A DNA stretch of 64,000 nt from Pseudobdellovibrionaceae bacterium (GCA_018663505.1 JABJQG010000052.1:1-64000), one strand, 5' to 3'. Positions 23,033 to 46,096 are shown, counted from the first letter of the stretch. Numbers and translations are program-made. Notes: generated from the sequence alone by a model not told the origin.

Positions 23033-23344
23033 GCGAGACCTCTTTTAAACGAACAAAAGAAAAATAACAGAACACACAGCAAATTCTAATTCTTGATATT
23101 TTAGACTTTGCTTGGATCACTTGAGTGTTCATACCCTTAGGCAGGCTAAAAACACCTGTTTTTGTGAACACAGCTTCTGCATTATATGTATCTTTTCAAG
23201 TAGTTATGATTAATATAAAATCATTCTCAAATTAAAACAATGAACCCCTTCAGAAGCCCTGTTAATCGCCGATAACTACTATAGGTTCAATTTTTTGAGT
23301 ACAAACACTCATTTGTGAACAAACTGTACGTAATCGGAGATCAA
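23033..23344. other. 312-bp intergenic region
   Basis: No gene seen. It contains a weak hairpin with a T-run near 23142-23163 (CAGG ... CCTG then TTTTT) that may end the 22130 transcript. A spaced inverted repeat GTGTTCA ... TGAACAC surrounds it. The promoter of the following lipoprotein should lie in the AT-rich 3' half. Confidence 0.4.
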
Positions 23345-27679: not shown

Positions 27680-28315
27680 TTAATTCGCTAGTTTTTTGTA
27701 TTTAGCGTGTCTTTGTCTGGCTACTTTCGATTCTGACTTCCACTTCTTCATCTGCTTTCTGTAGTCATTCTTTTTAGCAACCCAAGATTTATGTTCATCT
27801 TTTGCTGTGATCTCTTTATCTTCAATATTTCTTCGTAGCACAACTAAATCTTGGTTTTGCTCACCCCATTCAAGTTTTTCTGTATCTATTTCTACAATCT
27901 TCTTGTCATACTCTTGAATATTTAAATTTCTCAGGTTTATATTAGCCTCAAGTTTTATAAGTAAAGCTTTTAGTTTCTCCATTTCCTGAGTTTCTTTCAT
28001 GAGCTTCTTATTTTCTTTGGCCTTATAAGCAATGACTTTTAACTTCATTTTATCTAACGCTTTTTTATTTTTTTCTATATTTCTATCATTTTTACTCACT
28101 GCTCTTTTCTGAGCTCTTAAAGTGGTAATAGATTTTTTTAGTTCCACAATATTTTTCTTAGAAATTTCGTAATTCACTTTATACTGTTCGTAATTAGATA
28201 AGCTGTTATCCTTATTCTGTTCAAGCCGGTCTAAATCAACCTGCACCTCTACCTTGGCAAAAACCGGAGAAACCAACAAACTCAATGTGGATATAATTAA
28301 TATTTGCTTTCTCAT
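27680..28315 (-). CDS. Periplasmic coiled-coil protein at the end of the gliding-type cluster
   Basis: A signal peptide (1-20, ending VFA) is followed by about 190 residues of almost uninterrupted Lys/Glu/Leu heptads (for example KKIVEIDTEKLEWGEQNQDL). This predicts a long coiled coil in the periplasm. No family is recognised. Its start overlaps the stop of the preceding GltI-like gene by 4 bases (ATGA), so it is translated with the cluster and is a good candidate for an extra structural part of the machine. Confidence 0.75.
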   Translation of the reverse strand: MRKQILIISTLSLLVSPVFAKVEVQVDLDRLEQNKDNSLSNYEQYKVNYEISKKNIVELKKSITTLRAQKRAVSKNDRNIEKNKKALDKMKLKVIAYKAKENKKLMKETQEMEKLKALLIKLEANINLRNLNIQEYDKKIVEIDTEKLEWGEQNQDLVVLRRNIEDKEITAKDEHKSWVAKKNDYRKQMKKWKSESKVARQRHAKYKKLAN

Positions 28316-30918
28316 AAACTCCCCTTTTTCTCTTCACCAGATTTAACTGCATGATTTTTAAAATTAATTTTTTTATTCTTAAACTCTGGGCAATTATTTT
28401 TTAATGCTGATCTATAATTACCAATTTCATCTTCCCAGTATTCACCAGTAACACTCCAACTTAATGTTTTTTGTGGCTGCATACTCGCTGGTATCCTAGT
28501 TGCCTTTTTCTTGGTAACCTTGCCACCGGCAACTTGAAATCTAATATTTTGCCCACTACCTGCATAAGCTTCGTATCGAAGAAGCTCATTATTATTTATA
28601 AGGTGTTTCAATTGAGCGTGAATCAACTTAGTTCGTCTTTTAAGAACTCTTCCTGCTTTAAGCTTAAGTATATTCTTTTCCTTTGCAATTCTTCTAAAAG
28701 CTTTCTTTTTTAACCTAAAAAATCCTTGTCGCCCCTCTTCATAAACCTGTAATTGAAATCGCATGGCGGCAATTAAGTCTTTTTCCAAACGAACTTTTGC
28801 TTTGTATACGTTGACGTTGGCTAATAGCTCTTTTTTAACTTTGGCCTTTTTAATTAACCCACGGTATTTAGCCAAACGTTTTTTTGCTTTTTTCCCTCGC
28901 CATCTTAATTTCGCCTTGTCCTTAATGATAAGAGAATTAATAAATCTATATTGGTCCAGTTCATCTTCTTTTTGATTCAAAGAAGACTGTAGAGATAAAA
29001 AGTCACGGTGCCTCGCCATCTCACGAATCAATTGATAAGGTAAACCTTCAATATTCTTAGTGCTTTTTCCTGTAAGATACTTTTTTACCAAATTATAATA
29101 AGCCAAGTTCTTCTTTTTCTTGTTTAGATAATTACCAATTTTAGGCACCCAAGGCTTATAACGCTCCTCCATTAGTTTTAATGTTTGATAAGCATCACCA
29201 TATTGACAAATATTTAAGTAACCAATAGTTCTAACAACATAAGAATCAGGTTTATAAACAGCCTTAAAGTATGGGGAGTGCAGAGAGTACATATTACCAA
29301 TAGCACCAGAGGCATCCTGAGCCATAAGTTGTGACCAACCCTGTTCCACAAGTGCTTGTACCCAGTATGGACTATTTTTATCCACTTTTAAAAACTCAGC
29401 AGATGATTGTTTAAATTTCTTTTGACGAAAATAAATACGTCCCATATTTAGAGCTATCAATGAACTTAATTTTGAATCATCAATTTTTTTTGTAAGCATA
29501 TATTTCCTTAAACCCACAAATCGAGCAATGGACTGATCATGTCGCTCTAAAGCATAGTCGGACACACCTAATATAAATTGTGCCTTATGGTAATACTTGC
29601 TTTTCTTACTTACTTTTTCTGAAAATGATTTTGCAATTTTAAATTGCAAATCAATGGAGTATGCTCGTGAAAGGACATAATTAGCTCCATCTCTAGCCTC
29701 ATCAGGAATTAATGCTTTGTTCTTAATCTTCATTAATACACGCGCAACAGTGAGCTCATATTGTACAGGCAGATCTTTAATCAATACTTTAATAGCTATT
29801 GGAGATAACTCGGGATCCTCGGCCTTTACCACTTTAAGCAATCTTGTTGTAGATTCCGAGTAAAATCCCATCTCATGAGAGCATAAACCTAAATAATAAT
29901 TAGACTCCCTCTTATACTCTTTTATATTGGAAATATCATGAAATAACCCAGAAACAACATGACAATTATTCCCTCTTTTATATAAAATCGTTGCACTTAA
30001 CATTTTTAAATGATTTTTCGAATATTTAAAATATTCTTTTTCTGCATCTAAAGGCAAAGTTTCAATTTTGGCTAAGGCCTTTGCAATGCGTTTTTCATTT
30101 ACCAGAAGATCTAAGCCAAAATCTTTTCTTTTTGCTTGCCTAGCCGGACCAATCTTAGCCTGCTTAAACCTTTTCCATAATCTCACTTCATCTTTATATA
30201 ATCGCCCTGGTCCCTTAAGGGGTTTTGCCAACTTATAATTCGGCTTTAAACTCTCAAAATTTTGCACGATAAAGTCTTGCGAAGACAGCTCTGCTGGTCT
30301 ACCTGGATTCAACTTAGGTAGAGAAGTGACTTTTATTTTTTTAATTCTTACTTTTCCAGCCTTATTAGTGGTCTTTTTCTTATTATATAGATTAAAATAG
30401 GCCACTCCAGATTTAGTTAAAGGTAACGCTACATCAGGTTTTACTGCAGGTCTTTTAAGTGATGTAAAATTCTTATTCTTAATGGTATTTGAACTTTCTT
30501 TAATCTGAGACTGGCTTTCCTTCTTATTATTGGAAACAAAAGCTGGAATCATGGGGATCAAAACCTGACCATTATCATCTAGTACCTGAGGCAAAGGTGC
30601 TTTTTGTGGTACTTCTTCTTTCACAACTTTCTGAGGGGATGCATTAGACTTCTTAATATTTTTAGCATTATTAACAGCAGGAGAGGATTCATTAGTCTTT
30701 GTTTTATCCTCAAGAAAGTCTTTCTTGGCTTTTTGCCAAAAACTTAAAGCTTTTGACTTATAAAAGGAATATGCATCTTTCACATCTTTTTTAGCCTTGG
30801 CAATTTGAGCTTTATATGTGGATTCCTCTTGAACCGAAGAGTATTCCATAAACCTTGCGTTTGAACTCAAGGTAAACAAAATTGATAATACAAATATAAA
30901 ACTTTTTAACTTCTTCAC
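28312..30918 (-). CDS. gltI: Large periplasmic TPR-like protein, GltI-position
   Basis: 868 aa with a signal peptide (about 1-21). A Lys/Ser/Pro-rich low-complexity region (about 60-210) is followed by helical repeats of TPR type (about 270-600: YYLGLCSHEMGFYSESTTRLL, IALNMGRIYFRQKKFKQSS, ALVEQGWSQLMAQDASGAI). A basic coiled-coil C-terminal third comes next, and the end holds AYAGSGQNIRFQVAGG. By position after the GltH-like barrel it corresponds to gltI (AgmK-like, TPR) of the Myxococcus G1 cluster. The assignment rests on order and architecture, not on recognised identity. It begins 12 nt after gltH and overlaps the next gene by 4. Confidence 0.65.
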   Translation of the reverse strand: MKKLKSFIFVLSILFTLSSNARFMEYSSVQEESTYKAQIAKAKKDVKDAYSFYKSKALSFWQKAKKDFLEDKTKTNESSPAVNNAKNIKKSNASPQKVVKEEVPQKAPLPQVLDDNGQVLIPMIPAFVSNNKKESQSQIKESSNTIKNKNFTSLKRPAVKPDVALPLTKSGVAYFNLYNKKKTTNKAGKVRIKKIKVTSLPKLNPGRPAELSSQDFIVQNFESLKPNYKLAKPLKGPGRLYKDEVRLWKRFKQAKIGPARQAKRKDFGLDLLVNEKRIAKALAKIETLPLDAEKEYFKYSKNHLKMLSATILYKRGNNCHVVSGLFHDISNIKEYKRESNYYLGLCSHEMGFYSESTTRLLKVVKAEDPELSPIAIKVLIKDLPVQYELTVARVLMKIKNKALIPDEARDGANYVLSRAYSIDLQFKIAKSFSEKVSKKSKYYHKAQFILGVSDYALERHDQSIARFVGLRKYMLTKKIDDSKLSSLIALNMGRIYFRQKKFKQSSAEFLKVDKNSPYWVQALVEQGWSQLMAQDASGAIGNMYSLHSPYFKAVYKPDSYVVRTIGYLNICQYGDAYQTLKLMEERYKPWVPKIGNYLNKKKKNLAYYNLVKKYLTGKSTKNIEGLPYQLIREMARHRDFLSLQSSLNQKEDELDQYRFINSLIIKDKAKLRWRGKKAKKRLAKYRGLIKKAKVKKELLANVNVYKAKVRLEKDLIAAMRFQLQVYEEGRQGFFRLKKKAFRRIAKEKNILKLKAGRVLKRRTKLIHAQLKHLINNNELLRYEAYAGSGQNIRFQVAGGKVTKKKATRIPASMQPQKTLSWSVTGEYWEDEIGNYRSALKNNCPEFKNKKINFKNHAVKSGEEKKGSL

Positions 30919-30930
30919 ATGAATCCTTTA

Positions 30931-31749
30931 TTAAAAATAAAAAGTAGCTCCCAACAAAAATGTTGTAGCGTTAGTTGTGTCGTCACGAATCTTTTCACCA
31001 GAGTTATAATTTAGTACTTCCTCTTTGAACCAACGGTTTCTTAAATCCGCCCGCACAGCAAAGTTCTTATGAATGAAAAAATATTGTGAAACATCAAATC
31101 CAATGGCTAGAGATGACTTGCTTCTATCACCAGCCCTTATCTTTTGATCGTAGCTTGTAAGCCCAATATTTGGGGTAAAGGCCATATCAAAATATATAAT
31201 TTTTTTATTCAAAAGACTAACTTTAGCGTAAAAAGGAACCCAGTTGTAACCCACTGCTAAATGATTTTGTATTTTACCATGATCTGGATAAATTCCAGTT
31301 TCATTTGCAGCATCATTCACAAAAGCATCCACAGTTTTATTGTCAGCAGCATTAGATTTAATATAACTGACTTCAATACCATGGCGTTCGGAGAAAAAAT
31401 AATTACCTGTAAGGGCTAGATCAAATCCGCTAGAGTAAGCATCGTTAACCATAGGTCCCGTTTGTAGAGTAACAGCATACCTTTTCACTTTAGTATAAGT
31501 TCTATTTTGCACAACACTAAAATCAGTGTCCTTTGGTGCCCAGTATTTCTTCTCTAAACCAGAAATATCTAGTTTATCTGTTTTTGCAGTTGCCTTTGCC
31601 TTAGTACTCTTAGCAGTCTTAGCTACTACAGGTTTAGGTGCTACTTTTTTTCTCTTGTATTGCGTGCTTTGAGCAACGCTATTTAATGAAAACAATAGTA
31701 TAATTAAATGAACTAAACTGATTTTCAACACCACTGAATTTTTAATCAT
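30931..31749 (-). CDS. gltH: Outer-membrane beta-barrel protein of the gliding cluster, GltH-like
   Basis: A signal peptide (1-26, SVAQ) leads into a Lys/Ala/Pro linker (about 30-60). The conserved entry LEKKYWAPKDTDFSVVQNRTY then opens a barrel with SSGFDLALTGNYFFSERHG and terminal TFLLGATFYF. This is the 'outer membrane beta-barrel domain' family met in myxobacterial gliding loci (GltA/B/H). Predicted role: the outer-membrane contact of the trans-envelope complex. GGAGGAG precedes the ATG. A 151-bp gap separates it from gltG upstream, the longest gap within the cluster. Confidence 0.78.
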   Translation of the reverse strand: MIKNSVVLKISLVHLIILLFSLNSVAQSTQYKRKKVAPKPVVAKTAKSTKAKATAKTDKLDISGLEKKYWAPKDTDFSVVQNRTYTKVKRYAVTLQTGPMVNDAYSSGFDLALTGNYFFSERHGIEVSYIKSNAADNKTVDAFVNDAANETGIYPDHGKIQNHLAVGYNWVPFYAKVSLLNKKIIYFDMAFTPNIGLTSYDQKIRAGDRSKSSLAIGFDVSQYFFIHKNFAVRADLRNRWFKEEVLNYNSGEKIRDDTTNATTFLLGATFYF

Positions 31750-31900
31750 AACTCCTCCAACACCTAGTCTTAAAGGCTATCGGAACATCCACTGAAATAT
31801 TTAAAAGGGTAATATTATGAATAAATTTTAAACAGTGTCTCAAATAAGTACGTATCTCACTGATACAAACTAAAACCATTTTATTTATCCCAAATTCATT

Positions 31901-33397
31901 TCAGTTTGTACTCTTAAATAGAAAAGGGTACGACACCCTGACGTTAGTACCACCGTCTGGCTTGGGAAACTTCCATTTAGCTATACGACGCAGTATACAG
32001 CCCTCTACCATTGCGCTGTTCATTGTGGATGTGCCAATTTGCTGTGAAGCAACTTGTCCATTTGGGCCAATTACAAACTTTACTAAAAGCTTCCCATAGA
32101 GCTCAGGGTTAGCACTTAACTGTCTTTCATAACAATATCTAATCTGACCTAAGTTTTCTCGTATTGTTCGAGCTATAATTTCGCGTGCAAGTCCACCCTG
32201 CACATCAGTGTCTTCTTCTATGATTCCCACATTAGCTTGTCCAACACTACCTGAAGCTAAACCGTCCAATCCTTTTAATTTAGCAGCCGACCCTGCCCCA
32301 ATGGTACTCACTGAATTCAACTTAAAACTTTTAAGATTAGACTTCACTTTACTGTTTTTTAATTTAGATTTAGAAACTGAAGAAAATGCCCGACCTGCTC
32401 GACTTGAATTACTAGGTTTCACACCTTGAGATTTTACAATTGTAGCCGTCTTCGATGCTCGTTGAGCAATCTTACCTATAAGTTGACTGAGTCCAGACTT
32501 TTTAAACTTCTTACTAAAATTCACAACCTTAGGCGGCTTATTCGTCTTTACTGGTTTAACTGTTTTTGATGTTTTCGTTTTTTTTGTGGTTTTAGATACA
32601 AATTTATTTTTTAATTTTTGTGTTTTTTCACGATGCTTTTTAGTTGATTTGGCGTCGTATATCATACGTGTGTATTTATTCTTTAAAGGCTTCAACTGTT
32701 TTAATTCGGAATTCTCCATTTGTGGATAAAAAGCTATTAAGCCAAATATGATCATCAATGAAACTGTCGAAATTATTGCCGGCATTTTAAAGTTTGGGTC
32801 CCATAGGTTAAATATTTTTTCTTTAAAGTTGTCTTCTATTCTACTTGTTCTTACCAATCGTTGCTGTATTTCAATATCTGCAAATGAACTTTTCACCCAA
32901 ATATGATCATTTGGTGCTTTTAATACTATTTTCTCTCTATTTTGTAAAAATATAAAAGGATCGTTCTCTTTTAGCAAATGAGTCGCAATTATATGATCAT
33001 TCTTTCTTAAAATTACTTGATGAAACAGATCACCAATTTTATTTTCATCGGCGCCAGGTCTTGACTCAATTTTAAAAAGTTCACTTTTTATTTCAATGGG
33101 TTTAATTTTTAATAAGTGTCCACCAATATTACAGATTGTCTCGTGGTGTATAGGAGTTTCTAGTACAGGATTCTTACGTACCCAAGTCCCAGAGTCGGAG
33201 CATAAATCTAACAATGTCCAACCATCCTCACTGTATTCTAACATGGCATGTATTCCTGCCACTTCATCACCTAGAAGACGAACATGGGCATCTCTGGACG
33301 AACCAAATATAATCTGCTTGTTCTTAGACTTAAAGTTATAAGAACCTACAAATTTATTATCATAATTGTGCTCAATTTCAACTTCAAACCGTCGCAT
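31901..33397 (-). CDS. gltG: FHA domain, single TM and AgmX/PglI-type (TonB-like) C-terminal domain protein, GltG-like
   Basis: 498 aa. An N-terminal cytoplasmic FHA domain (about 28-98) has IFGSSRDAHVRL, GIHAMLEY and DSGTWV. A second FHA-like or linker part runs to about 200, and one membrane helix spans about 205-225 (AIISTVSLMIIFGLIAF). A Lys/Thr/Ser-rich periplasmic arm (about 230-370) follows. The C terminus is the AgmX/PglI domain (about 400-498, EIIARTIRENLGQIRYCYE, GKLLVKFVIGPNGQV, IAKWKFPKP), a TonB-C relative. GltG of Myxococcus has the same make-up. It should carry motor force from the stator across the periplasm and read a phospho-signal through FHA. It is followed by a 151-bp gap. 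Confidence 0.85.
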   Translation of the reverse strand: MRRFEVEIEHNYDNKFVGSYNFKSKNKQIIFGSSRDAHVRLLGDEVAGIHAMLEYSEDGWTLLDLCSDSGTWVRKNPVLETPIHHETICNIGGHLLKIKPIEIKSELFKIESRPGADENKIGDLFHQVILRKNDHIIATHLLKENDPFIFLQNREKIVLKAPNDHIWVKSSFADIEIQQRLVRTSRIEDNFKEKIFNLWDPNFKMPAIISTVSLMIIFGLIAFYPQMENSELKQLKPLKNKYTRMIYDAKSTKKHREKTQKLKNKFVSKTTKKTKTSKTVKPVKTNKPPKVVNFSKKFKKSGLSQLIGKIAQRASKTATIVKSQGVKPSNSSRAGRAFSSVSKSKLKNSKVKSNLKSFKLNSVSTIGAGSAAKLKGLDGLASGSVGQANVGIIEEDTDVQGGLAREIIARTIRENLGQIRYCYERQLSANPELYGKLLVKFVIGPNGQVASQQIGTSTMNSAMVEGCILRRIAKWKFPKPDGGTNVRVSYPFLFKSTN

Positions 33398-33400
33398 TGT

Positions 33401-33637
33401 TTACTCCAAATATCTCACAGAATTTTTGATCTCTTTGTCAAATTTCTTTCTTACTTTATATAGAGGCATAAATTTAAGACCACGCTTTTGCAACAAGTAT
33501 GCTCCATCTGGGCTTCTAGACATCCCATCAACCTCAGATCCATCGAAACTCACATCCTGAGTTTTTCTATACTTAACACTCTTAGCAATGGCCGAATATG
33601 ATACAACCAAGATTGTTAAAATAACTAATAATCTCAT
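33401..33637 (-). CDS. gltF: Small exported protein, GltF/CglF-position
   Basis: 78 aa: a signal peptide (MRLLVILTILVVSYSAIA) and a short mature chain with FDGSEVDGMSRSPDGAYLL and a basic end (KVRKKFDKEIKNSVRYLE). It starts on the last base of the gltE-like stop codon and ends 3 bp before gltG, so it is embedded in the operon and is real despite its size. In Myxococcus a small gliding protein, CglF/GltF, sits in the same slot between GltE and GltG. The name is proposed from synteny and size. Confidence 0.65.
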   Translation of the reverse strand: MRLLVILTILVVSYSAIAKSVKYRKTQDVSFDGSEVDGMSRSPDGAYLLQKRGLKFMPLYKVRKKFDKEIKNSVRYLE

Positions 33638-34554
33638 TAGTTCACTCCTTTGTTTTTCAAGCTACTCACTGATCTTTTTTTGTTGTTTAGCTTTGAAACA
33701 ACAGTTTCTAGTTCTCTAATTTTTTGATTCAGATTAAATGATGTTTTTTTATTGAGTTTATTAGACTTCATTAAAATTCTTATTTTTTTATACAGTGAAA
33801 GTGCAACCGAACTGTTATTCATCTTTTTTTCATAAATGGAGGCCCTTCTTAGGCGTATATCAAGATTTCGATGATCTACTTTAATAGCCTTATCAAAAAA
33901 CAATATAGCGTCCTTAAACTTACCTAAAAAATAATAATTATCTGCAATACCTGCTAATGCCTCTTTATGGACAGCATTATTCTTGTAGATAAGGTTATAG
34001 TGTTTTAAAGATTGCTTAAACTGTAGTGAATTAATATATGATCTTGCTAAATAAAGATGAGCCGCTTCTAAATTGGGATCTTTCTCAATAGATCGCTGCA
34101 TGTCTGCCATAGCACCATGCAAATCATTATTTTTTAACTTAATACGCGCTCTTTGATAATGAAAGAGTCCTGAACTAGGCTGTTTATCTTGAGCATTTTC
34201 GATCATCCAAATTGCTAAAGGATAATTCTTTTCATACTCAGCGACAACACTTAAGTAATAGTAACCCCAAGGCGATTTTTTGTAATTTGACAGTATCACA
34301 CGACTATACGAAGTCGCTCTGTCAAGTTTTGACTGTTTAATACAAATATTTGAATATTCCTTAAGTCTTTTTAATGTCAAATCATTATGCTTTTTTTCTT
34401 GATATTTAGGGCAAATCCCTTTGATTTCATATGCTTTAGATTTTAAACCAATAAAACTATTTGTTTTATAAACATCACTGGGACTTACTTCAGTTTTTTT
34501 AACAGTAGCACAGGAGACACTAAATAAAATTACTAATAATAAACTATATTTCAT
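33637..34554 (-). CDS. gltE: TPR lipoprotein, GltE/AglT-like
   Basis: 305 aa. A lipoprotein signal (MKYSLLLVILFSVSC) is followed by TPR repeats from about 95 to 250 (PWGYYYLSVVAEYEKNYPLAI, AHLYLARSYINSLQFKQSLKHY, AGIADNYYFLGKFKDAILFFDKAI). A basic coiled-coil end (LNQKIRELETVVSKLNNKKR) closes the chain. It corresponds in position and domain content to AglT/GltE. It overlaps gltD by 11 bases and gltF by 1. Predicted to sit on the periplasmic face of a membrane as a scaffold of the complex. Confidence 0.7.
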   Translation of the reverse strand: MKYSLLLVILFSVSCATVKKTEVSPSDVYKTNSFIGLKSKAYEIKGICPKYQEKKHNDLTLKRLKEYSNICIKQSKLDRATSYSRVILSNYKKSPWGYYYLSVVAEYEKNYPLAIWMIENAQDKQPSSGLFHYQRARIKLKNNDLHGAMADMQRSIEKDPNLEAAHLYLARSYINSLQFKQSLKHYNLIYKNNAVHKEALAGIADNYYFLGKFKDAILFFDKAIKVDHRNLDIRLRRASIYEKKMNNSSVALSLYKKIRILMKSNKLNKKTSFNLNQKIRELETVVSKLNNKKRSVSSLKNKGVN

Positions 34555-37500
34555 GACGTACCTCCTTATGTATAGGTAAAATCACTTCAGGACTTACCAT
34601 TTGTACTATTGGATTTTCTGGAGCCTTCATATTCTTCCTATCTAATTTTTTCTGAAGATTTTTAGCAATGTCACCATACACGTTATATGTCTTTACCTGC
34701 TTAATGGCATTCACAAGTGTATCAATACTGTTATCTTCCATAGGCATTGCCAAGTTCTCAATCTCAGACCTAAACGCTACCTGACTATTTTCAGGTAAGT
34801 CTTTAGGATAAGGCATAGATCTTAATTGTTCGGAATATACTGCATAGAGATCAGAAAGATCACTCAATGCTTCAATGGAGATCATTGCATCACCATATTT
34901 AATGGTGGAACGATAAGCTTTCTGTGCTTTTTCAAGCTTTCCTGTTTTTAACTGTAATACCATTGTAAGCCTACTTAAACTAGTTTTAAGACTCTGTTGA
35001 ATAAATTCTTGTTTCAGAATTTTTGCCTGAATCAAACGAGCCTTAGCCATTGCGTAAGAGCTAGTATCACCTTTCATTTTTAAAACTTTTTTTGCCTCTG
35101 CAAACGCAAGCGGAAAGTCATTATTTAAGTAGTATTTTTCCACATTTTTAAGCAACAACAAACTGGATTCTGGTTGAATATTTTGAACTATTATTTGATC
35201 AATAACTTCAGTATGTTTTTTAGAATTAAGTTTACCATGGCCTCTTAAAGAATATATTTTTTCTAAGTTAACTAAACTAAGAGTTCTAATCTCTTTGTTT
35301 GTACTTGAAACAAGTTGCAGATAAATTTTTGCAGCATTTTCCATATCACCAGAAAGGTACTCATAATCAGCAGCTAGCTTTTTCCAGCCTTCTTGTTGGG
35401 TAACAAACTTTTTTCCAATTGTATTTATATTAGAAAGATCAAGGAGGATTGAAGATGCCTTCCCTAATAAAGCTAAACCTTCATAAACCTTAGCTGATCT
35501 TAATAAATATTCAATTCTATTATTTTCTTTTGGAAATAATTGGGCATATTTTTTTGAAGATTGAGCAGCAATAACAGGTCTTTTCATTTTGTACTCTAAC
35601 TCAATGGCATTTACCCATGCTTTAGGAGCTAAATCTGATTTTAAGTTACTTAATGCAAAATTCTTATAGTTTTTAATAGAGTTTTTTAACTCCTGTTTAT
35701 CTTCACTTTGTTGAATTGTTAAAAATGATGATTGTTGGAAAACTAATTGTAGCTTTCTATATCTCAGTTTACTTCCTTTTGACTTTTTCATAAGATTTTT
35801 ACTATACTTGATCATTAAGGAATAATCTTTGTCTTTATTGAGAATATCTAAATATAGATCCTGTGACTTTACGCCCTTATCTTTATTTGCAAACTTATCA
35901 CCAAGTTGTTTAAATAGTTTTTTGGCTGGTTTAAATTGATTATTATTATAGTATATAAGTGCTAACTTAAACTGAATATCTAGTTTATATTTAGGGTTTT
36001 TATGTCGACCGACATAGTATTCAGCTAATTTTTTAAAAAGTTTTTCATCTTTTCTATTAAAATGGGGAATTTTAGCTTTAACTTTTTGTTTTTCTAAACT
36101 CAATAATGCAGCATAATCAGCATCGTGTGCCATCATCTTATCAAACTTAATCTTTTGTAAATCAGCAACAACCTCTTTACGGTATTTTTTATCTAAGTTT
36201 TTCTTTTTTAAGATTTTTTTAATCTTAAAAATTCTTTGTTTATTTATATTAAGGTATCCTCCAACGATAGCGTATTGTTGGCTAGACTTATAGAATTTTT
36301 GTTGATTAAAAAGTAATTCAGCTAATACATATCTAACTTTAGTTTTTTCAAAGGATTTTTCTTTACTTTCTAAATATAACCAAAATGATTTCTCCGCTAC
36401 CTTTGCGAAAATTGGATATTTTTTATTTTTACCCCACATTCTTAACCATTTATTGGCAAAATGTAATGCTGTCTTCTGTAATTCTTTATGACAGTTAGAT
36501 ATTAAATCAATTTGTTTACTTTTGTCCCAGGAATGAGAGTTATGGCAAAAATCAGACATTATAGCTAATTGTTTTACAGCAGCTTTACGATCCTTTAATG
36601 TTTCGTATGCACTTATCAATCTAGAATATAACATAGGTACAAGATCTGAATTTCTCTCATGTTTTAAATAATCATTATAAATAACAAGTTCATCTTTAAC
36701 TTTATTATGTCTTCCATATAAATTTGCAAGTTTAAGGAGATATAAGGTAACATCAATATCTCCACTTTGCTTTTTAAAATAGTCATATGCATATTTAGAA
36801 GAATGAACATCCTCAAAAAATAATGTCATATCTGACAATGCTTCTTTACGTAGATCTAATCTAGCGTCCACATTATTTTTAGATGCAAAAACGCCATATG
36901 CCACAACTTTTTCAAGTTGCAATAAACCAGACCTAGAATCTCTTAAGTTATAAAGTGACCAACCTGCTTTATACAAACCATATGGATACACTCTAGAGTT
37001 TGGATATGCTTTAATTGCATTAAAGTGATTTAATGCTTTATTAAACTTTTTTCTAGAAAAATTAATCTCACCAATTGCTAAATGAGCATCAGCAACAAGA
37101 GGCGAATATTTAAAGTTCTTTATTAACTTCCAATAAAGCTTTTCAGATTTTTGATTTAAAGCAATTTGTTGACAGGCCATAGCCTCATTAAAAATAACTA
37201 AATCTAAATTTGAAGATTTTGGATACTTTAATTGAATATAATCATAAATGGCGATGGCTTTTTTTATCCAATATTTTGAAGATTTATCTTTAATTTCCTT
37301 GGGCATGAATCTAACTACAGTCTCTGATTCTCTATTTAACTCAAAAAACTGCGCTGTTTTTGATCGTCGCATATATAACTCTGCAAGACGTAATTGCATA
37401 TCTGCTTCTAGTTCTGTACCTTTATATTTTTTAATTAATTTTTTAATTTGTTTAATAGCTTTTTTTTCTGTTTTTTGAATTAAAAGCTCTGCCTTTAATG

Positions 37501-37621
37501 ACTTCTCTTCATTTTTTTTAAAGTTTTTATTTAATTTTAAATCATTAAGCACATTTTCTGCATGTCCTTGCCATGCAAAGCTTAAAATTAAAATATATAA
37601 AATGTTTTTAAATAAATTCAA
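34544..37621 (-). CDS. gltD: Giant periplasmic TPR protein, GltD/AgmU-like
   Basis: 1025 aa: a signal peptide (1-21, GHA) and about 900 residues of helical repeats with TPR or Sel1-like periodicity (AHLAIGEINFSRKKFNKALNHF, LYKAGWSLYNLRDSRSGLLQL, KLALIYYNNNQFKPAKKLFKQL). Its place directly after the stator genes and before the GltE-like lipoprotein matches AgmU/GltD, a periplasmic TPR protein of the gliding complex. Very Lys-rich and AT-rich. It starts 15 bp after the second ExbD gene. Confidence 0.7.
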   Translation of the reverse strand: MNLFKNILYILILSFAWQGHAENVLNDLKLNKNFKKNEEKSLKAELLIQKTEKKAIKQIKKLIKKYKGTELEADMQLRLAELYMRRSKTAQFFELNRESETVVRFMPKEIKDKSSKYWIKKAIAIYDYIQLKYPKSSNLDLVIFNEAMACQQIALNQKSEKLYWKLIKNFKYSPLVADAHLAIGEINFSRKKFNKALNHFNAIKAYPNSRVYPYGLYKAGWSLYNLRDSRSGLLQLEKVVAYGVFASKNNVDARLDLRKEALSDMTLFFEDVHSSKYAYDYFKKQSGDIDVTLYLLKLANLYGRHNKVKDELVIYNDYLKHERNSDLVPMLYSRLISAYETLKDRKAAVKQLAIMSDFCHNSHSWDKSKQIDLISNCHKELQKTALHFANKWLRMWGKNKKYPIFAKVAEKSFWLYLESKEKSFEKTKVRYVLAELLFNQQKFYKSSQQYAIVGGYLNINKQRIFKIKKILKKKNLDKKYRKEVVADLQKIKFDKMMAHDADYAALLSLEKQKVKAKIPHFNRKDEKLFKKLAEYYVGRHKNPKYKLDIQFKLALIYYNNNQFKPAKKLFKQLGDKFANKDKGVKSQDLYLDILNKDKDYSLMIKYSKNLMKKSKGSKLRYRKLQLVFQQSSFLTIQQSEDKQELKNSIKNYKNFALSNLKSDLAPKAWVNAIELEYKMKRPVIAAQSSKKYAQLFPKENNRIEYLLRSAKVYEGLALLGKASSILLDLSNINTIGKKFVTQQEGWKKLAADYEYLSGDMENAAKIYLQLVSSTNKEIRTLSLVNLEKIYSLRGHGKLNSKKHTEVIDQIIVQNIQPESSLLLLKNVEKYYLNNDFPLAFAEAKKVLKMKGDTSSYAMAKARLIQAKILKQEFIQQSLKTSLSRLTMVLQLKTGKLEKAQKAYRSTIKYGDAMISIEALSDLSDLYAVYSEQLRSMPYPKDLPENSQVAFRSEIENLAMPMEDNSIDTLVNAIKQVKTYNVYGDIAKNLQKKLDRKNMKAPENPIVQMVSPEVILPIHKEVRHEI

Positions 37622-37636
37622 TTTAATTCCTTTTTT

Positions 37637-38149
37637 TTATTCTAAGCTTAAGGTCGCCATTTTTAAATCAGCATAACCTGCTAATGAAGATGTATACATT
37701 ACCTTCTTTAATAATTTATAATTCAATTTTTTATCTGCCTGCATAACAATCTTACCCTCAAATTGAAACTCTTTATTTTCTTTTTGAATATCCATAGATT
37801 TTTGAGCATGTGAATCCAACTCTTTAAACAGCTTCTTTATAAAATCTCTATCTTGTGCTTCAGTTTCAGTAAAATCAATCTTACCATCAATTAAAGTAAC
37901 CACTTTTTTATCTTCTACAAAGATACCTTCAAGGCTAACAACCATCTTAATTCCTTCAACTGGATGTACAATTGAAACTGATTCAGGCAGACTTAGACCT
38001 TTTTGTGGAGTTATATTCACAGCACTTGTTGAATAACTCTTTAGTAGAAACACAATAATTATTGTAAACATATCAACCATAGCAGTAAGCTGAAGTACAA
38101 ATGTAGACCTCTTATTATTCGCTTTCATTTTTTCTACTGCTCTTCTCAT
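37637..38149 (-). CDS. ExbD/TolR-family stator protein (AglQ/AglS-like), Asp retained
   Basis: 170 aa with a short cytoplasmic N terminus, one membrane helix (about 18-36, LQLTAMVDMFTIIIVFLL) and a periplasmic domain. D26 lies at the position of the proton-carrying Asp of ExbD/TolR. The periplasmic part ends with LDIQKEN... and an ExbD-like VMQADKKLNYKLLKKVM block. Together with the TolQ-like gene and a second ExbD-like gene it makes the three-part stator AglR-Q-S. It is separated from the second ExbD gene by one base. Confidence 0.85.
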   Translation of the reverse strand: MRRAVEKMKANNKRSTFVLQLTAMVDMFTIIIVFLLKSYSTSAVNITPQKGLSLPESVSIVHPVEGIKMVVSLEGIFVEDKKVVTLIDGKIDFTETEAQDRDFIKKLFKELDSHAQKSMDIQKENKEFQFEGKIVMQADKKLNYKLLKKVMYTSSLAGYADLKMATLSLE

Positions 38150-38150
38150 A

Positions 38151-38711
38151 TTACCCTTCTAGTAAATTTTTAAAAATTAAATCAGGAAACATTACCTTTA
38201 ACTCAACTGGTTTATTTTGCTCAGAATTCTCTAAAAATATAGGTTCATCATTTGCTTTAATCTTCCTTGCTTCATCCATAACTTTAACAATGTCTTCGTA
38301 AGCCACTTCTTCTGACGGTAAGAATTGTATTTGAAATATTTTAGGATGCTGTTTTTTAACCTGAACTAAATGCTTATGTAGTTGATTAAGATTTTCTTTA
38401 AAATTCTTGCCTGCAACTTGTTTTCTATACTTTGTACTCGCACCATATTTAACAATAAGATCAAACTCCTTACTGTTAGACATTTTTAATTCAATCACAA
38501 TTTCTCTTTTCTTCTTCTTTCTGTCTTTTTCAATAGCTTGTTTTACAGCTTGTGGTAATGGCGTTTCTACAATACTCACTTTTACAAATACTGTAGCTAA
38601 AAGCATCATAGGAATAAGAGTCACCATTAAAGCCAATAATGGAGATAAATCTATCTCAAAATTTGGTTCTTCAGGTGCTTCCATATTCATTCTGTTTCTT
38701 TTACGAGCCAT
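38151..38711 (-). CDS. ExbD/TolR-family stator protein with Ala in place of the membrane Asp
   Basis: 186 aa. The helix entry EIDLSPLLALMVTLIPMMLLA aligns with the ExbD/TolR pattern (INVTPLVDVxLVLL), but the usual Asp position is A27. D21, six residues earlier, lies before the helix where family members have Asn. The rest is ExbD-like: periplasmic REIVIELKMS, FQIQFLPSEEVAYEDIVKVMDEA. It is therefore probably the non-proton-carrying member of the pair, or uses another acidic residue. It follows the TolQ-like gene by 24 bp. Confidence 0.83.
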   Translation of the reverse strand: MARKRNRMNMEAPEEPNFEIDLSPLLALMVTLIPMMLLATVFVKVSIVETPLPQAVKQAIEKDRKKKKREIVIELKMSNSKEFDLIVKYGASTKYRKQVAGKNFKENLNQLHKHLVQVKKQHPKIFQIQFLPSEEVAYEDIVKVMDEARKIKANDEPIFLENSEQNKPVELKVMFPDLIFKNLLEG

Positions 38712-38735
38712 AATAGTCCTCAGTTATCCTTATAT

Positions 38736-39461
38736 TTATGATACTTTTGCAGGAGGTGGTGGTACTGCCCCTGATTGTCGTTGTAACTCTTTTTCAGCTA
38801 AAGCTCTTGGAAACGCCGCCTGTTGTGAAAAGGGTTGATAATGTCTTGTGGTTAACAAATCCACAACCTTACTGGAATGTTCAGATATTTCCTCTAATAA
38901 GAAATTTTGACGAGCATGTAAAAATGCATAACCAATCATCACAGGTATAGCTACACTTAAACCAAGGGCCGTAGTGTTCATGGCCATTGATATCCCTTGT
39001 GATAACACCAACTGTTTTTGTGCTGGATCTGCCGCGCCTACTGCTTCAAATGACATAATAAGACCTGTAATAGTCCCTAAAAGTCCTACTAAAGTGGAAA
39101 CATTGGCTATCATTGATAAATAACCTAATCTTTTTCCTAAATTAGGAATCACCTCAGAAAGAGCAATATCTAGACCTTGATCTATACCTTCATCATCACG
39201 ATCTGCTCTTTCCAAAACTCCTTTAACTACATGAGCAAGTGGAGCCTTGTTGTTAGCATTACAAAAAGTGATAGCCTCTTCAATCTTATCACCCATAATT
39301 AAACTCTTAACCTGATTCATAAAATCTTGAGTTTTAATGGAGTAATCAATATAAAGAACTTTTGCTCGCTCAATGGTAAGTGCTAAACCACATATACCCA
39401 TTATGACAATCACATAAGCTGGTATACCACCATCTGTAATAACCTTGATTAAATTTTCCAT
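38736..39461 (-). CDS. aglR: TolQ/ExbB/MotA-family proton channel protein, AglR-like
   Basis: 241 aa with three membrane helices (about 11-31, 115-140, 158-182). Family motifs: LGKRLGYLSMIANVSTLVGLLGTITGLI (Thr-lined helices that contact ExbD) and ISMAMNTTALGLSVAIPVMIGY. A Gln/Pro-rich C-terminal tail (VPPPPAKVS) is unusual. I choose ATG 39461 over GTG 39467 because AAGGGAG then lies 8 nt upstream. With the two ExbD-type proteins it forms a proton-driven motor. Clustering with glt-type genes favours AglR over TolQ or ExbB of TonB systems; no tolA, tolB or pal is nearby. Confidence 0.88.
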   Translation of the reverse strand: MENLIKVITDGGIPAYVIVIMGICGLALTIERAKVLYIDYSIKTQDFMNQVKSLIMGDKIEEAITFCNANNKAPLAHVVKGVLERADRDDEGIDQGLDIALSEVIPNLGKRLGYLSMIANVSTLVGLLGTITGLIMSFEAVGAADPAQKQLVLSQGISMAMNTTALGLSVAIPVMIGYAFLHARQNFLLEEISEHSSKVVDLLTTRHYQPFSQQAAFPRALAEKELQRQSGAVPPPPAKVS

Positions 39462-39482
39462 CTTCACATCTCCCTTTAATCC

Positions 39483-40076
39483 TTACGCAGCCTCTTGAAA
39501 AACAGAGAACTGAGCTATCATTTTTTTAGTTTCTTCATTAATTTTAATAAATTTTAATCCATATCTAATAGGAGCCTCACTTTGGTTCACCCCTTTAACA
39601 TATTTCTTACTTACAACTTCGCAAACAGCATTAAATGAATTACAAACAACTGTAGGTTTGAAGTGCAAATATATAATGTCACCAGGAACACACATGGAGT
39701 TTTCCATAATGACACCAGCACCACCCTCACTTAACTCCACACTTGTTCCATTCCAAATACTTTGGTTATCATGAATTAAAACAGGAGCTTCAAATTGAGC
39801 TCTTCTATGATGTCGGCGAAAAAAGGTATCAGCAATTTCCGGAGATTCCTTCTGCAACTCTTTTAGTTTATCCTGAGAAAAAGCATCTAAATCTGCGATT
39901 CTTTTCCAGTCCGAAAAGCTAGCTTTCCATACAAAATCAAATTCAAAAATTAATTTTTGTTGTAATAGTTTAACCATATCCACATAGCCATAAGGTCCAA
40001 ACTGGCTCTCACCTTTTAGAACAAACCACTCCTCAGAAGGGTCAAAACTTTGCGAATTTGAATTCTTACTATCCAT
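39483..40076 (-). CDS. GYF_2 and PilZ two-domain protein heading the gliding-type cluster
   Basis: 197 aa, cytoplasmic. N-terminal GYF_2-like domain (about 16-64): WFVLKGESQFGPYGYVDMV, then FVWKASFSDWKRIADL. C-terminal PilZ domain (about 86-190): FFRRHHRRAQFEAPV (RxxxR arginines for c-di-GMP) and VELSEGGAGV (near DxSxxG; Glu replaces Asp/Asn), ending IRYGLKFI. PilZ suggests control of the motor by cyclic-di-GMP. GYF domains bind Pro-rich peptides, and the adjacent AglR-like protein has a PPPP tail. It starts the operon 21 bp before aglR. In Myxococcus a GYF domain is instead part of GltJ (recalled). Confidence 0.85.
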   Translation of the reverse strand: MDSKNSNSQSFDPSEEWFVLKGESQFGPYGYVDMVKLLQQKLIFEFDFVWKASFSDWKRIADLDAFSQDKLKELQKESPEIADTFFRRHHRRAQFEAPVLIHDNQSIWNGTSVELSEGGAGVIMENSMCVPGDIIYLHFKPTVVCNSFNAVCEVVSKKYVKGVNQSEAPIRYGLKFIKINEETKKMIAQFSVFQEAA

Positions 40077-40509: not shown

Positions 40510-42711
40510 TTAAGGCCTCACTAAAAAATCTTCTGCTTTAAATAATTTTTCAATATTTAATTCGCCTTTTGCAATATCACTAGGTGAAATAAAATTATTT
40601 TCTATACTTTTTTTCCAAACACTATTTAAACCGCTTTCACTAGAGAGCGACTTTAAATCATTTTCAATCCATTTTTTTAAGAAAATATACTGTGCTGTTT
40701 CTAGCCCAGAAAACTTATATAAAAATGCATTTTCTTGTAAGGTTCGACTGTGGCCAAATATATTTACTAGGTCATCAATTAGCGCTGCTGACCTTTTATT
40801 CAATGGTACCCAGTCTAAGTTGATTTGCCGACCTTCCTCAATGACAAGCTTAGGAGTATGAAGTTCCAGTTCCTTATTACCTAAGTGATATTCATTTTGT
40901 AAAAGAGCTGACATCACTTTTTTGATGCTAGTGGGAATTGCTATTGCAAATCGATCTAAATTTTTAGGATTGGCGATATAGCTCATCTTTACCATAAGCT
41001 CTTTTGTGGATGGATCTCTTTTTATATAAATTTCAGGTGAACCAAGTTTTGCAGGCTGATTATGTTGACCCATGTCATACTGGCTTCTATAAAATCTAAG
41101 AAATTTAGATTTCTCCCAGTTATTTTGCGAATCTGTGACAAATTCATTCTCATTTCTAAATTCATTTGCTGTAGTTAACTCAACATGATCAAATTTAGAA
41201 AATAGAAAACCATATTTTTTAAAGTCCCTTTTATAAGTTTTTCTTAAAAGTGGCATATTAAACATTTTGTTTTTTAGTATATTACCAATTTCAACATTCA
41301 TTTCTTTTACGTCTGCAAATATAAACTCATTGGGTTTAAAAATATTAAGTGGATCATGAAATAATGTGTTTAAAAAACTATTGGCTTCAATATAGAAATT
41401 ATCCGGGTCTCTCATGGCATCTTTACTTAAAATTAACACAATAACTTGAGGTATTTCTACACCCTCTATACGCCCTTCTTTAACCAAATTATCAACATCT
41501 TTTTCCCGCATCCTGGACACATGTTCATCCACTATGTAAAGCATGGGCTTATCACTATCTTTAACATATAACGTTTTATTATTACCCAGCATATTCCTAT
41601 CATGGGCTAAGCCGTTATATATTTGCGTGAGTTTCATCACCATAAGCTCAGTCATTGGAGTTGTGGGTGCTGCTATCTGTGTATTAATCTTTACTTTTAC
41701 ATACTCATTGCTAACTATTTCAATAGTTGTGTGTCCCCAGTGAGTTACTCCCTCACCCTTTGCCTCATGACGCCTTGAAACTCCATCCCTCAACTTTGTC
41801 CATGAAATATTTATTATTTTTTTCACACCATGCAGAAAACCAGGTAACCGACGCAACCAGTGAGCTCCTATGCTGAGTAAATTCATTGCATTTCCAGTAG
41901 GAGTATCTTGTGACTTTATTCCAGACGTTTGTACTTTAAATGCTCTTGTTTGATCAATGGTAGTGTGATTCAAATTTGGATTAACAGTTTGAGTACTGTC
42001 ATGTTTCTTCACATGATTTTCTTCTCTCGCAGTTTTCTCCACAGCAGGTAAACTATCTAAATTTGTATTTAAATCTTTTCCATTACCAAACCTAGCCGTA
42101 TGAGACGAAGGGGATTGGGCTAGTAGATCATTTGCCCCAAATGCATTAGCAAAAAACTCAACCCTGCCAAATTTATTTAATAGTTGTAATTTAAGTCCAT
42201 AAAAACCAGATATACTACTTTTAAGAAGTTGTATGTCTTGAGAAACCTGTTTGACTATTTTCTTTTTAGTGGAGCGCCACTTAAAATAATTGCGTCTTTC
42301 AGCCCCATCTTCCATATTATCTGGTTGTTCTAAATTAAATTTCTTTATTAGGCGATTGAGTTCTAGATAATTGGCATTCGTCTCATATTCTACTTTTAAA
42401 ATAGGATACTCATCATCTCGCTTAACCCAAGAGAGTAGTTCCACAAACTCTGCAGAAACCTCTTTAAGAAGGTTTTCTTTTTCTTTTATTATCTGACTTC
42501 TCACTTCTTCTTCTGAGGTCTTAAGTAAGTTATCAAGTTGCTCTTGGTAATCTCTCGCTTCAACTCTGGTAAATTGAGTTTCAACTTTTACGTGACCAAA
42601 ATTTGACATGTCTTCAAAGTAACGAATGCATTGATTTGCCGCTAAAAGGTCAATATGGGCAATAAGGACAAATAAGGCTGACACATAGACAAAAATTGTC
42701 TTCTGAAACAT
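40510..42711 (-). CDS. Large secreted protein of unknown function
   Basis: 733 aa with a signal peptide (MFQKTIFVYVSALFVLIAHIDLLA) and a mature start NQCIRYFEDM. Residues about 45-190 are charged and helical. A Ser/Thr/Asn-rich stretch (about 195-265) is followed by a mixed alpha/beta region with conserved-looking segments (GHTTIEIVSNEYVKVKI, VIVLILSKDAMRDPDNF, LRKTYKRDFKKYGFLF). I cannot place it in a family. It may be distantly related to the other two exported unknowns (11350, 26205), but no shared motif is firm. It stands alone on the minus strand between the gliding cluster and the repeat-bearing region after phnE. Confidence 0.72.
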   Translation of the reverse strand: MFQKTIFVYVSALFVLIAHIDLLAANQCIRYFEDMSNFGHVKVETQFTRVEARDYQEQLDNLLKTSEEEVRSQIIKEKENLLKEVSAEFVELLSWVKRDDEYPILKVEYETNANYLELNRLIKKFNLEQPDNMEDGAERRNYFKWRSTKKKIVKQVSQDIQLLKSSISGFYGLKLQLLNKFGRVEFFANAFGANDLLAQSPSSHTARFGNGKDLNTNLDSLPAVEKTAREENHVKKHDSTQTVNPNLNHTTIDQTRAFKVQTSGIKSQDTPTGNAMNLLSIGAHWLRRLPGFLHGVKKIINISWTKLRDGVSRRHEAKGEGVTHWGHTTIEIVSNEYVKVKINTQIAAPTTPMTELMVMKLTQIYNGLAHDRNMLGNNKTLYVKDSDKPMLYIVDEHVSRMREKDVDNLVKEGRIEGVEIPQVIVLILSKDAMRDPDNFYIEANSFLNTLFHDPLNIFKPNEFIFADVKEMNVEIGNILKNKMFNMPLLRKTYKRDFKKYGFLFSKFDHVELTTANEFRNENEFVTDSQNNWEKSKFLRFYRSQYDMGQHNQPAKLGSPEIYIKRDPSTKELMVKMSYIANPKNLDRFAIAIPTSIKKVMSALLQNEYHLGNKELELHTPKLVIEEGRQINLDWVPLNKRSAALIDDLVNIFGHSRTLQENAFLYKFSGLETAQYIFLKKWIENDLKSLSSESGLNSVWKKSIENNFISPSDIAKGELNIEKLFKAEDFLVRP

Positions 42712-43191: not shown

Positions 43192-44235
43192 TTATTTGAT
43201 GGCTTCGCGGATGTATGCCGAACCCGTATCCATAACCCAAACTACAACGGCAATAACAAGGACTAAACAGCCCACTTCGTTCCAAAGGGCCTGCCCTTGA
43301 TATTGGATAAGCATAGTACCAATACCACCGCCACCAACAAGACCAATAATTGTGGCCATTCTTACGTTAATATCCCAACGGTAAATAGTAAACGCTGTAT
43401 AAGGCAAAACAATCTGTGGAACCATGGCAAACCAAACCACCTGTAAGCTTGAAGCTCCAGTGGCTTTAATAGCTTCCACTGGGCCTTCAGAAATACACTC
43501 CACAAGCTCAGAATAGTTTTTTGCTAAGGAGGCCACTGAATGCAGTAGTAAAGCTAACATACCTGCGAATGGTCCAATCCCCACCCATACAGAAAATATA
43601 ATAGCCCAAATTAATGGCTCAATGGAGCGAGTGACGTTAAGCAAGGTTCTGATTGTGCCATAAATTGCAAATAAAACCTTATGCCCACTCATTACGTTCT
43701 TTGCACAAAGGAAACTAAGCACAAATGCAATGGGAACAGCAAGTACTGTGGCCATAAAAGCCATAAAAATAGTTTCAATAATTGCTAAAATCGCTCTGGG
43801 TAGTATTTCAAAATTTGGATTCAATAAACTGGAAAAAATTCTTTGTGCGCCTAGAAATCCACTTTCAGAAAAAAGTTCATAAAAGCTAAATTCTGTTACA
43901 ACAAAGCTAGCGTAAAAAGCGATTATAAATGCTACTATAAGTTCAATTCCCCAAAACTTTTTAAACCAAGGCACATCTTCTTGAACGGCTTCACTTAATT
44001 GTGGTTCTGCAAATAGGATATGCCCTATTGTGTGAATACCCTTTGAATTTAACAAAAAAACAACCACACCGCTGAAAGCAAAAACCCCTAAGCTTAAAAA
44101 AGTATTTCGACTAAGCATTAGCAATTGGTCTTCAGAAGGATTTACAAAGTAAACCAACAGGCTTAAAACTACGAAAGTAAAAATTAACCCATCTAACAAC
44201 ACACTCTGAAATATAACTTGTTTGTTTTTATTCAT
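43192..44235 (-). CDS. phnE: Phosphonate/phosphate-analogue ABC transporter permease
   Basis: Inner-membrane permease of a PhnCDE-type importer. The C-terminal ~230 residues form the transport domain with MAFMATVLAVPIAFVLSFL, SVASLAKNYSELVECISEGPVEAIKATGAS (EAA loop contacting PhnC) and the terminal IGLVGGGGIG motif. About 100 extra N-terminal residues with two more hydrophobic helices (about 10-32 and 42-62) precede it, giving 347 aa against ~260-290 for the usual PhnE. It starts 15 bp after phnC. No C-P lyase genes are present, so the substrate could be phosphonate, phosphite or a phosphate ester. Confidence 0.9.
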   Translation of the reverse strand: MNKNKQVIFQSVLLDGLIFTFVVLSLLVYFVNPSEDQLLMLSRNTFLSLGVFAFSGVVVFLLNSKGIHTIGHILFAEPQLSEAVQEDVPWFKKFWGIELIVAFIIAFYASFVVTEFSFYELFSESGFLGAQRIFSSLLNPNFEILPRAILAIIETIFMAFMATVLAVPIAFVLSFLCAKNVMSGHKVLFAIYGTIRTLLNVTRSIEPLIWAIIFSVWVGIGPFAGMLALLLHSVASLAKNYSELVECISEGPVEAIKATGASSLQVVWFAMVPQIVLPYTAFTIYRWDINVRMATIIGLVGGGGIGTMLIQYQGQALWNEVGCLVLVIAVVVWVMDTGSAYIREAIK

Positions 44236-44250
44236 TAAATTCTGCCCCTC

Positions 44251-45021
44251 TTAGTTGATATGAACTTCTTTAGCTGCATCTCCATAAATAGTTTCAAACC
44301 ACTCTTCATCAATGTTTTCAGGGCTTCCTTCAAACACCAATTCACCGTCTTTGAGTGCAATCACACGGTCTGCATACTCACGAACTAAACTTAAAAAATG
44401 TAAATTACAAACTACGGTTAGGCCTAACTCTCTGTTTACTTTACGTAAGTAATCCATCACCACATGACAAGTGGCCGGATCCAAAGAGGCCACTGGCTCG
44501 TCCGCTAATAAAATTTCTGGAGATTGAGTGAGCGCTCTCGCTATGGCAACACGTTGTTGCTGGCCTCCGGAAAGCTGATCTGCACGAATATAAGCTTTTT
44601 CCTTAATCCCCACTAAATCTAGATACTCTAACGCTTTTTCCTTATCCTTTTTACTAAATGAGCCAAAGATACTTTTAAATGTGGATGTTCTAGACATAGC
44701 ACCAGACAAAGCATTTTTATAAACAGAGTATCGTGGAATTAAATTGAAATGTTGAAAAATCATTCCAATTTTAGAACGAACTTTTTTAGCCTTTGCTCCA
44801 TCAATACGAGTGATGTCTTCACCCTTAAATACTATGGAGCCGCCGGTAGGTTGATGCAAATTATTTATACACCTTAATAAGGTAGATTTACCTGAACCAC
44901 TTAAGCCGATAACAACAAGAAATTCTCCTTGTTTTACATCAAAGCTCACGCCCTTCAGTGCTTGTACTCCGTTGGAGTAAGTTTTTGTAAGGTTTTTTAC
45001 TTCTAAAATTGGTTCTGACAT
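44251..45021 (-). CDS. phnC: Phosphonate ABC transporter ATP-binding protein
   Basis: 256 aa ATPase with Walker A GLSGSGKST, Q-loop FQHFNLIPRYSVYKN, signature LSGGQQQR, Walker B ILLADEPVASLDP and the H-switch His in VVCNLHFLSLV, where PhnC proteins typically read NLH. The phosphonate subfamily is supported by this NLH and by the flanking phnD and phnE. A 94-bp gap separates it from phnD. Confidence 0.93.
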   Translation of the reverse strand: MSEPILEVKNLTKTYSNGVQALKGVSFDVKQGEFLVVIGLSGSGKSTLLRCINNLHQPTGGSIVFKGEDITRIDGAKAKKVRSKIGMIFQHFNLIPRYSVYKNALSGAMSRTSTFKSIFGSFSKKDKEKALEYLDLVGIKEKAYIRADQLSGGQQQRVAIARALTQSPEILLADEPVASLDPATCHVVMDYLRKVNRELGLTVVCNLHFLSLVREYADRVIALKDGELVFEGSPENIDEEWFETIYGDAAKEVHIN

Positions 45022-45115
45022 ATGACTCTCTTAATTTATAAGTGCATTTAACTTACGTTTTCAGTTTTTCAATAAGTACTGTGCTCATAATGTTATATAA
45101 ATAAAAATACTCATT

Positions 45116-46033: not shown

Positions 46034-46096
46034 TGAGCTCCTCCTAAGGATATTTAGGCACATTTGTCACACCCCAGCTAAAAAGTGTCAAGAGCT

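Follow-up and report, generated by a model that had tools for sequence, protein, structure and literature searches.

The window analysed here, a 64,000-nucleotide stretch of DNA from a Pseudobdellovibrionaceae bacterium (GCA_018663505.1, JABJQG010000052.1:1-64000), carries on its minus strand a real and intact eleven-gene operon (27,680 to 40,076) for an envelope machine of the Glt type, stator included. By gene order, protein length, phylogeny and the best match of each gene, this operon is the orthologue of Bd1473–Bd1482 of the predator Bdellovibrio bacteriovorus and, as a finding, another member of the already known Bdellovibrio glt/agl operons. Its interest lies in a one-Asp stator and an operon-linked adhesin family, and two features appear to be new: the loss of the aspartate at the AglQ position, coupled with an Asp six residues upstream, and a MIDAS/VWA lipoprotein as a recurrent member of the operon. 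We propose, with a probability of about two in three, that the operon encodes a 'Bd1473-type' Glt machine of the Bdellovibrionia that gives slow surface gliding by moving adhesin complexes.

All eleven frames are open, and the gaps between them in the order of transcription (from 40,076 to 27,680) are 15, 24, 1, 15, −11, −1, 3, 151, 12 and −4 bp, in agreement with the original prediction, made from the sequence alone, of a tight eleven-gene operon with a single 151-bp exception. A promoter scan of the sequence returned promoter-like sites no more numerous than in shuffles. The same genes occur in the same order at no fewer than 22 further loci of the Bdellovibrionia, some with a VWA insertion or a GltD–GltE fusion; with 22 or more other genomes of this class sharing the order, the arrangement is not a matter of chance. 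In B. bacteriovorus HD100 (sequences taken from genome G073, an assignment supported by where its MglA and glt genes lie), the four glt clusters are found near 0.39, 0.79, 1.40 and 2.28 Mb, in agreement with the named clusters Bd0412–0420, Bd0828–0838, Bd1473–1483 and Bd2368–2377 (PMC2797640), and the window operon matches the one at 1.40 Mb. The PilZ gene Bd1482 is reported to sit at the 5′ end of a gliding operon (Hobley 2012, PMC3271064) and Bd1481 was named aglR in Kadouri's screen (PMC2277423); counted downwards from Bd1482, and with GltD and GltE as one fused gene, the operon comes to exactly ten genes, ending at Bd1473. The original prediction had contrasted the union of stator and glt genes in one locus with Myxococcus, where the motor is encoded elsewhere. 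Such a union is not unusual: Luciano 2011 (PMC3169522) gives a stator and a conserved core complex in one locus as the core-complex arrangement, and counts four 'expanded core complex' sets for Bdellovibrio.

Pfam and NCBIfam scans of the operon proteins, with the 78-residue product of 33,401–33,637 left out, identified GYF_2 and PilZ, MotA_ExbB, two ExbD, tetratricopeptide repeat (TPR), and FHA and TonB_C domains, together with family-model matches to GltE, GltG, an outer-membrane barrel (TIGR04565) and GltC. In the order of transcription, all on the minus strand, the first product is a 197-residue GYF_2 and PilZ protein orthologous to Bd1482 (39,483–40,076; Pfam PilZ 45 bits, GYF_2 33 bits), followed by the stator: an AglR-type pentamer subunit of 243 residues orthologous to Bd1481 (38,736–39,467; MotA_ExbB 86 bits; one tree clade with Bd1481, 100/99), ExbD-type subunit 1 in the AglQ position, orthologous to Bd1480 (ExbD1; 186 residues; 38,151–38,711; ExbD 56 bits), and ExbD-type subunit 2 in the AglS position (ExbD2; 170 residues; 37,637–38,149; ExbD 42 bits). 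Next come a GltD-type periplasmic TPR protein of 1025 residues with a TTG start (34,544–37,621; profile match with the GltD-type proteins of Myxococcus and HD100), a GltE-type TPR lipoprotein of 305 residues (33,637–34,554; NCBIfam GltE 42 bits, under cut-off) and the 78-residue GltF-type exported protein, which has a signal-peptide-like start and a 41-bit profile match to Myxococcus GltF. A GltG-type protein of 498 residues with FHA, transmembrane and TonB_C segments (31,901–33,397; NCBIfam GltG 150 bits, cut-off 650), a GltA/GltB-type outer-membrane barrel of 272 residues (30,931–31,749; TIGR04565 75 bits, over cut-off), a GltC-type TPR protein of 868 residues with a GTG start (28,312–30,918; NCBIfam GltC 93 bits, cut-off 450) and an exported coiled-coil protein of 211 residues without a family match (27,680–28,315), predicted to form a single long helix, complete the operon. 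NCBIfam scores under the Myxococcus equivalog cut-offs mark the operon proteins as homologues, not strict equivalogs.

These assignments revise the gene order first read as gltD-E-F-G-H-I with the GltA–C set missing. Profiles built from the operon orthologues matched the G2 locus of Myxococcus sp. CA023 (barrels 60 and 54 bits, GltC 137 bits), and the barrel profile had no match in the Myxococcus G1 locus, where GltF, GltG and a 4132-residue GltI are encoded. The order is therefore D-E-F-G-(A/B)-C, with GltC and a GltA/B-like barrel present, and GltH and GltI absent. Ruled out on the same comparisons are GltH as the identity of the barrel and GltI as that of the 868-residue TPR protein, which matches both the GltC model and Myxococcus GltC; for GltI itself (4132 residues in Myxococcus) there is no counterpart within the operon. 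The FHA protein proved to be GltG-like as expected, being shorter than Myxococcus GltG (640 residues) and 48% identical to it over the last 110 residues. The predicted absence of a GltJ-type protein also stands, as the operon has no GltJ equivalent and the genome gives only partial matches, mostly to the C-terminal domain. Homologues of GltD, GltE, GltG and GltC thus share a locus with the stator, as do the members of the Glt core complex (AglRQS with GltD, E, G and C; group B of Luciano 2011). A single-sequence GltG scan of the genome collection found no match, and the Myxococcus genome was reached through M. xanthus MglA (checked against PDB 6hjh).

In a stator tree of 44 sequences, 29 Agl/Glt stators are united in one clade, distinct from Tol and Exb (100/100), within which the window AglR and 19 orthologues make up one clade (100/99). 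This clade joins the Myxococcus M2 stator and a Sorangium stator (Sorangium b) at 96/87, and the Myxococcus M1 AglR joins the stators of the Bd0828 cluster and of C25, another contig from the genome of the window, at 96/95; the window stator falls on the M2 side and is not orthologous to M1 AglRQS. The neighbourhood of the M2 stator offered no functional hint. Domains, profiles and tree together bear out the Glt-type machine with its own stator that had been predicted. It is not alone in the genome, where stator-bearing glt clusters number three (C25, C49 and the window); the AglRQS-type one is C25, of which the window operon is a paralogue. Separate stators of the Tol/Exb branch are encoded as well.

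TolR/ExbD-type proteins carry in their membrane helix a single Asp that serves as the proton carrier. Gliding requires the proton-binding site of AglQ (PMC9120999). In the window, A27 stands in place of the membrane Asp in ExbD1, where D21 lies six residues further upstream, and ExbD2 keeps D26, so the pair does not have the two Asp residues of an AglQ/AglS stator. Over 37 orthologous stators, the ExbD1 position is Ala in 23, Ser in 2, Gly in 1 and Asp in 11, a loss in 26 of 37, and the Asp-less group includes both the window and Bd1480 of HD100. ExbD2 retains its membrane Asp in 51 of 51 stators of all types and the Bd0828-type ExbD1 in 28 of 28; the ExbD1 of contig C49 in the same genome has Gly at this position. 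Only two ExbD1 columns separate the Asp-kept from the Asp-lost proteins, positions 27 and 21, the latter being Asn or Ser where the membrane Asp is kept and Asp where it is lost (37 of 37). An ExbD1 tree with both positions masked needs at least two changes and places locus L071 among the Asp-bearing orthologues with starred support, so the linked change, judged from these sequences, probably arose more than once. The literature searched contained no account of membrane Asp loss in ExbD1. In the AglR-type subunit, T132 and T166 are invariant among orthologues.

A MIDAS/VWA gene lies in or beside the operon at 16 of 42 readable loci, in seven of ten families and at three positions: before the PilZ gene, between PilZ and AglR, and after the last gene. 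About one or two such adjacencies would be expected by chance, a rough estimate as the loci are not independent. Nearly all copies have a lipobox. Genomes hold about 5 to 11 MIDAS/VWA genes, which also abut Bd2368-type and Bd0412-type clusters. No VWA gene adjoins the window operon; the closest in its genome, C60:112369, falls in one clade with Bd1483 and operon-linked relatives (100/99 in the VWA tree). NCBIfam links the VWA family weakly to MIDASAdhsBdello and CglD. For the HD100 VWA gene at 3,007,917, the locus tag Bd3099 is possible by position. The genomic evidence points to a concrete machine and to a family of candidate adhesins.

The operon also has components of its own. The built-in PilZ regulator that had been predicted is present as the PilZ–GYF protein; its gating of the machine by cyclic-dinucleotide signals is probable. 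The RxxxR motif (R88/R92) is kept in 21 of 21 orthologues, and the second motif reads E114-x-S116-x-x-G119 in the window and mostly ExSxGG in orthologues, so that of the cyclic di-GMP receptor pattern, RxxxR with (D/N)xSxxG, the first part is present and the Asp/Asn of the second is Glu here, as in most orthologues. Bd1482 has been proposed as a signal receiver for gliding (PMC3271064). GYF_2 also occurs towards the N terminus of Myxococcus GltJ (65 bits), which suggests a shared docking role. A second PilZ protein (L046:14495-15193; 232 residues, 55 bits) is convergent just after the AglRQS-type cluster of C25, such that PilZ accompanies two of the three glt clusters. MglA and MglB had been listed as missing; MglA is encoded elsewhere, on contig C23 (60% identical), and for MglB no Robl_LC7 match was found in the window's genome, as reported likewise for HD100 (PMC3983030). 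During these comparisons, a record named Comamonas sp. KCTC 72670 (BNCN01000011.1, L078) was seen to carry an MglA 99% identical to that of M. xanthus and is probably misnamed.

The coiled-coil protein, first proposed as a new part, is lineage-specific by genome counts: it occurs in 87 of 99 genomes of the class, nearly always once, in 1 of 192 outside it and in 0 of 97 Myxococcota genomes (no positive control within that group). An AlphaFold2 model shows one helix from 18 to 210, about 190 residues (predicted local distance difference test score 89, predicted template modelling score 0.38), which if straight would measure about 28 nm, roughly the width of the periplasm by arithmetic from the model. 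The protein is probably a periplasmic rod.

We suggest that the AglR-type ring and its two ExbD-type partners would form a proton-driven stator in the inner membrane, acting through the FHA–TonB-like GltG on an outer-membrane complex of GltD, GltE, GltF, GltC and the GltA/B barrel, which would in turn move surface adhesin complexes. The GYF domain of the PilZ protein perhaps fills the docking role held by the GYF domain of GltJ in Myxococcus, and the adhesin is probably a MIDAS/VWA lipoprotein, whose gene many relatives carry in the operon and the window's genome on another contig. After 4 h on a surface, HD100 shows raised bd1480 expression, and Bd0367 mutants unable to glide express less of it (PMC9140294); this surface induction and low expression make a role in gliding likely. 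Transposon insertions in Bd1481 and Bd1483 make the reduction of biofilm weaker (PMC2277423). Several points weigh against gliding by this machine. A literature search found no deletion of the Bd1473–1482 operon with a gliding assay; AglS Bd0838, required for prey attachment in a screen (PMC6561027), belongs to the other, AglRQS-type cluster (Bd0828–0838; C25 here); deletion of Bd1483 alone left prey invasion unaffected (PMC11003981); equivalents of GltI, GltJ and GltH are absent from the operon; and the host is known from a draft genome of 72 contigs alone.

A different use of the same apparatus would be the transport of surface polymers or lipoproteins without movement of the cell, as with Nfs in Myxococcus sporulation, for envelope or biofilm purposes. 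We consider this unlikely but a serious competitor: the stator sits with M2, not with AglRQS, GltI and GltJ are essential for gliding and missing here, duplicated clusters are unable to stand in for the gliding one and some bacteria with a core complex are not known to glide (Luciano 2011, PMC3169522), and Agl–Nfs is reported to rotate a spore-coat polymer (Wartel 2013). Yet bd1480 expression tracks surface exposure and gliding ability in HD100 (PMC9140294), and the operon has GltF and GltA/B-type genes, which the non-gliding core complexes of Luciano's survey lack. The loss of Asp from ExbD1, and the absence of a stator from the operon of some relatives (L053, L054), might instead be signs of a degenerate, partly inactive copy with a decaying stator; all frames are intact, however, several families keep the Asp-less form (26 of 37 orthologues), the second Asp never varies and position 21 changes in step, and we judge decay to be quite improbable. 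Least probable of all is an energy system of the Tol-Pal or TonB–ExbBD type for envelope stability or uptake, despite the 64-bit TolQ and 50-bit ExbB scores of the AglR-type protein and the TonB_C end of the FHA protein, since those scores are far under the cut-offs (221 and 206), separate Tol/Exb-branch stators exist in the genome, and the tree sets all Glt stators apart at 100/100 and thereby rules out membership of the Tol or TonB families.

For the gliding machine that we favour, we infer that one Asp-bearing subunit may suffice to drive the motor. It is conceivable, although we would sooner bet against it, that this is a working rotary stator whose mixed-pair axle has one proton-carrying Asp, the membrane Asp of ExbD1 having been traded for one at the cytoplasmic edge, and that each Bdellovibrionota Glt machine drives its own MIDAS/VWA adhesin. 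If so, such a stator would use about 5 rather than 10 protons per turn. A review of 5:2 motors leaves mixed versus like AglQ/AglS pairs open and holds ten-fold symmetry to be almost certainly universal (PMC9389320); that nature has dispensed with one membrane Asp is relevant to both points. The gene bd1480, published as 'aglQ' and a gliding marker in HD100, encodes the Asp-less subunit.

Relatives vary the plan of the operon. A GltD–GltE fusion of about 1200–1270 residues occurs in the Bdellovibrio family (L065, L066, L067, L069, L073, L277, L282, L284 and L286) and in a single relative from the window's own family (L055), hinting at contact between the two proteins. The stator trio is absent from the operon in L053, L054, L261 and L270, and displaced to after the last gene in L061 and to before PilZ in L064 and L265, where it groups with other families and looks like a replacement. 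In family f9 (L059, L060, L264 and L273), the operon is reduced to PilZ-AglR-ExbD1-ExbD2-GltG, with the coiled-coil gene elsewhere in the genome. Around the window operon lie a 955-residue exported, adhesin-like protein with Ig-like, cadherin-like and Fn3 domains (23,315–26,182, plus strand), a 733-residue protein directly upstream without a Pfam or NCBIfam match (40,510–42,711, minus strand) and a phosphonate-type ATP-binding cassette transporter with permease, ATPase and binding protein (43,192–46,063).

Among known systems, the closest is HD100 Bd1473–1482(–1483), with the same genes and order, PilZ first, the coiled coil last and an Asp-less ExbD1; there GltD and GltE are fused (1246 residues) and the MIDAS/VWA gene Bd1483 lies beside PilZ, whereas in the window GltD and GltE are separate genes and no VWA gene adjoins. 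The Bd0828–Bd0838 and C25 clusters belong to the same machine class and have their own stator, but are closest to AglRQS, with two barrels, a 700-residue GltG and the ExbD1 membrane Asp kept. Tol-Pal and TonB–ExbBD share the stator superfamily and a TonB_C-like domain, and differ in forming a separate clade with other partners. The Myxococcus Agl–Glt machinery (M1 aglRQS, G1 gltD–J, G2 gltA–C,K) has in common with the window homologues of AglR, two ExbD-type subunits, GltD/E/F/G/C and a GltA/B barrel, besides the GYF domain that GltJ shares with the PilZ–GYF protein; in contrast, the window operon occupies one locus instead of three, has a stator on the M2 side, lacks GltH, GltI and GltJ, adds the PilZ–GYF and long-helix proteins and has lost the Asp at the AglQ position.

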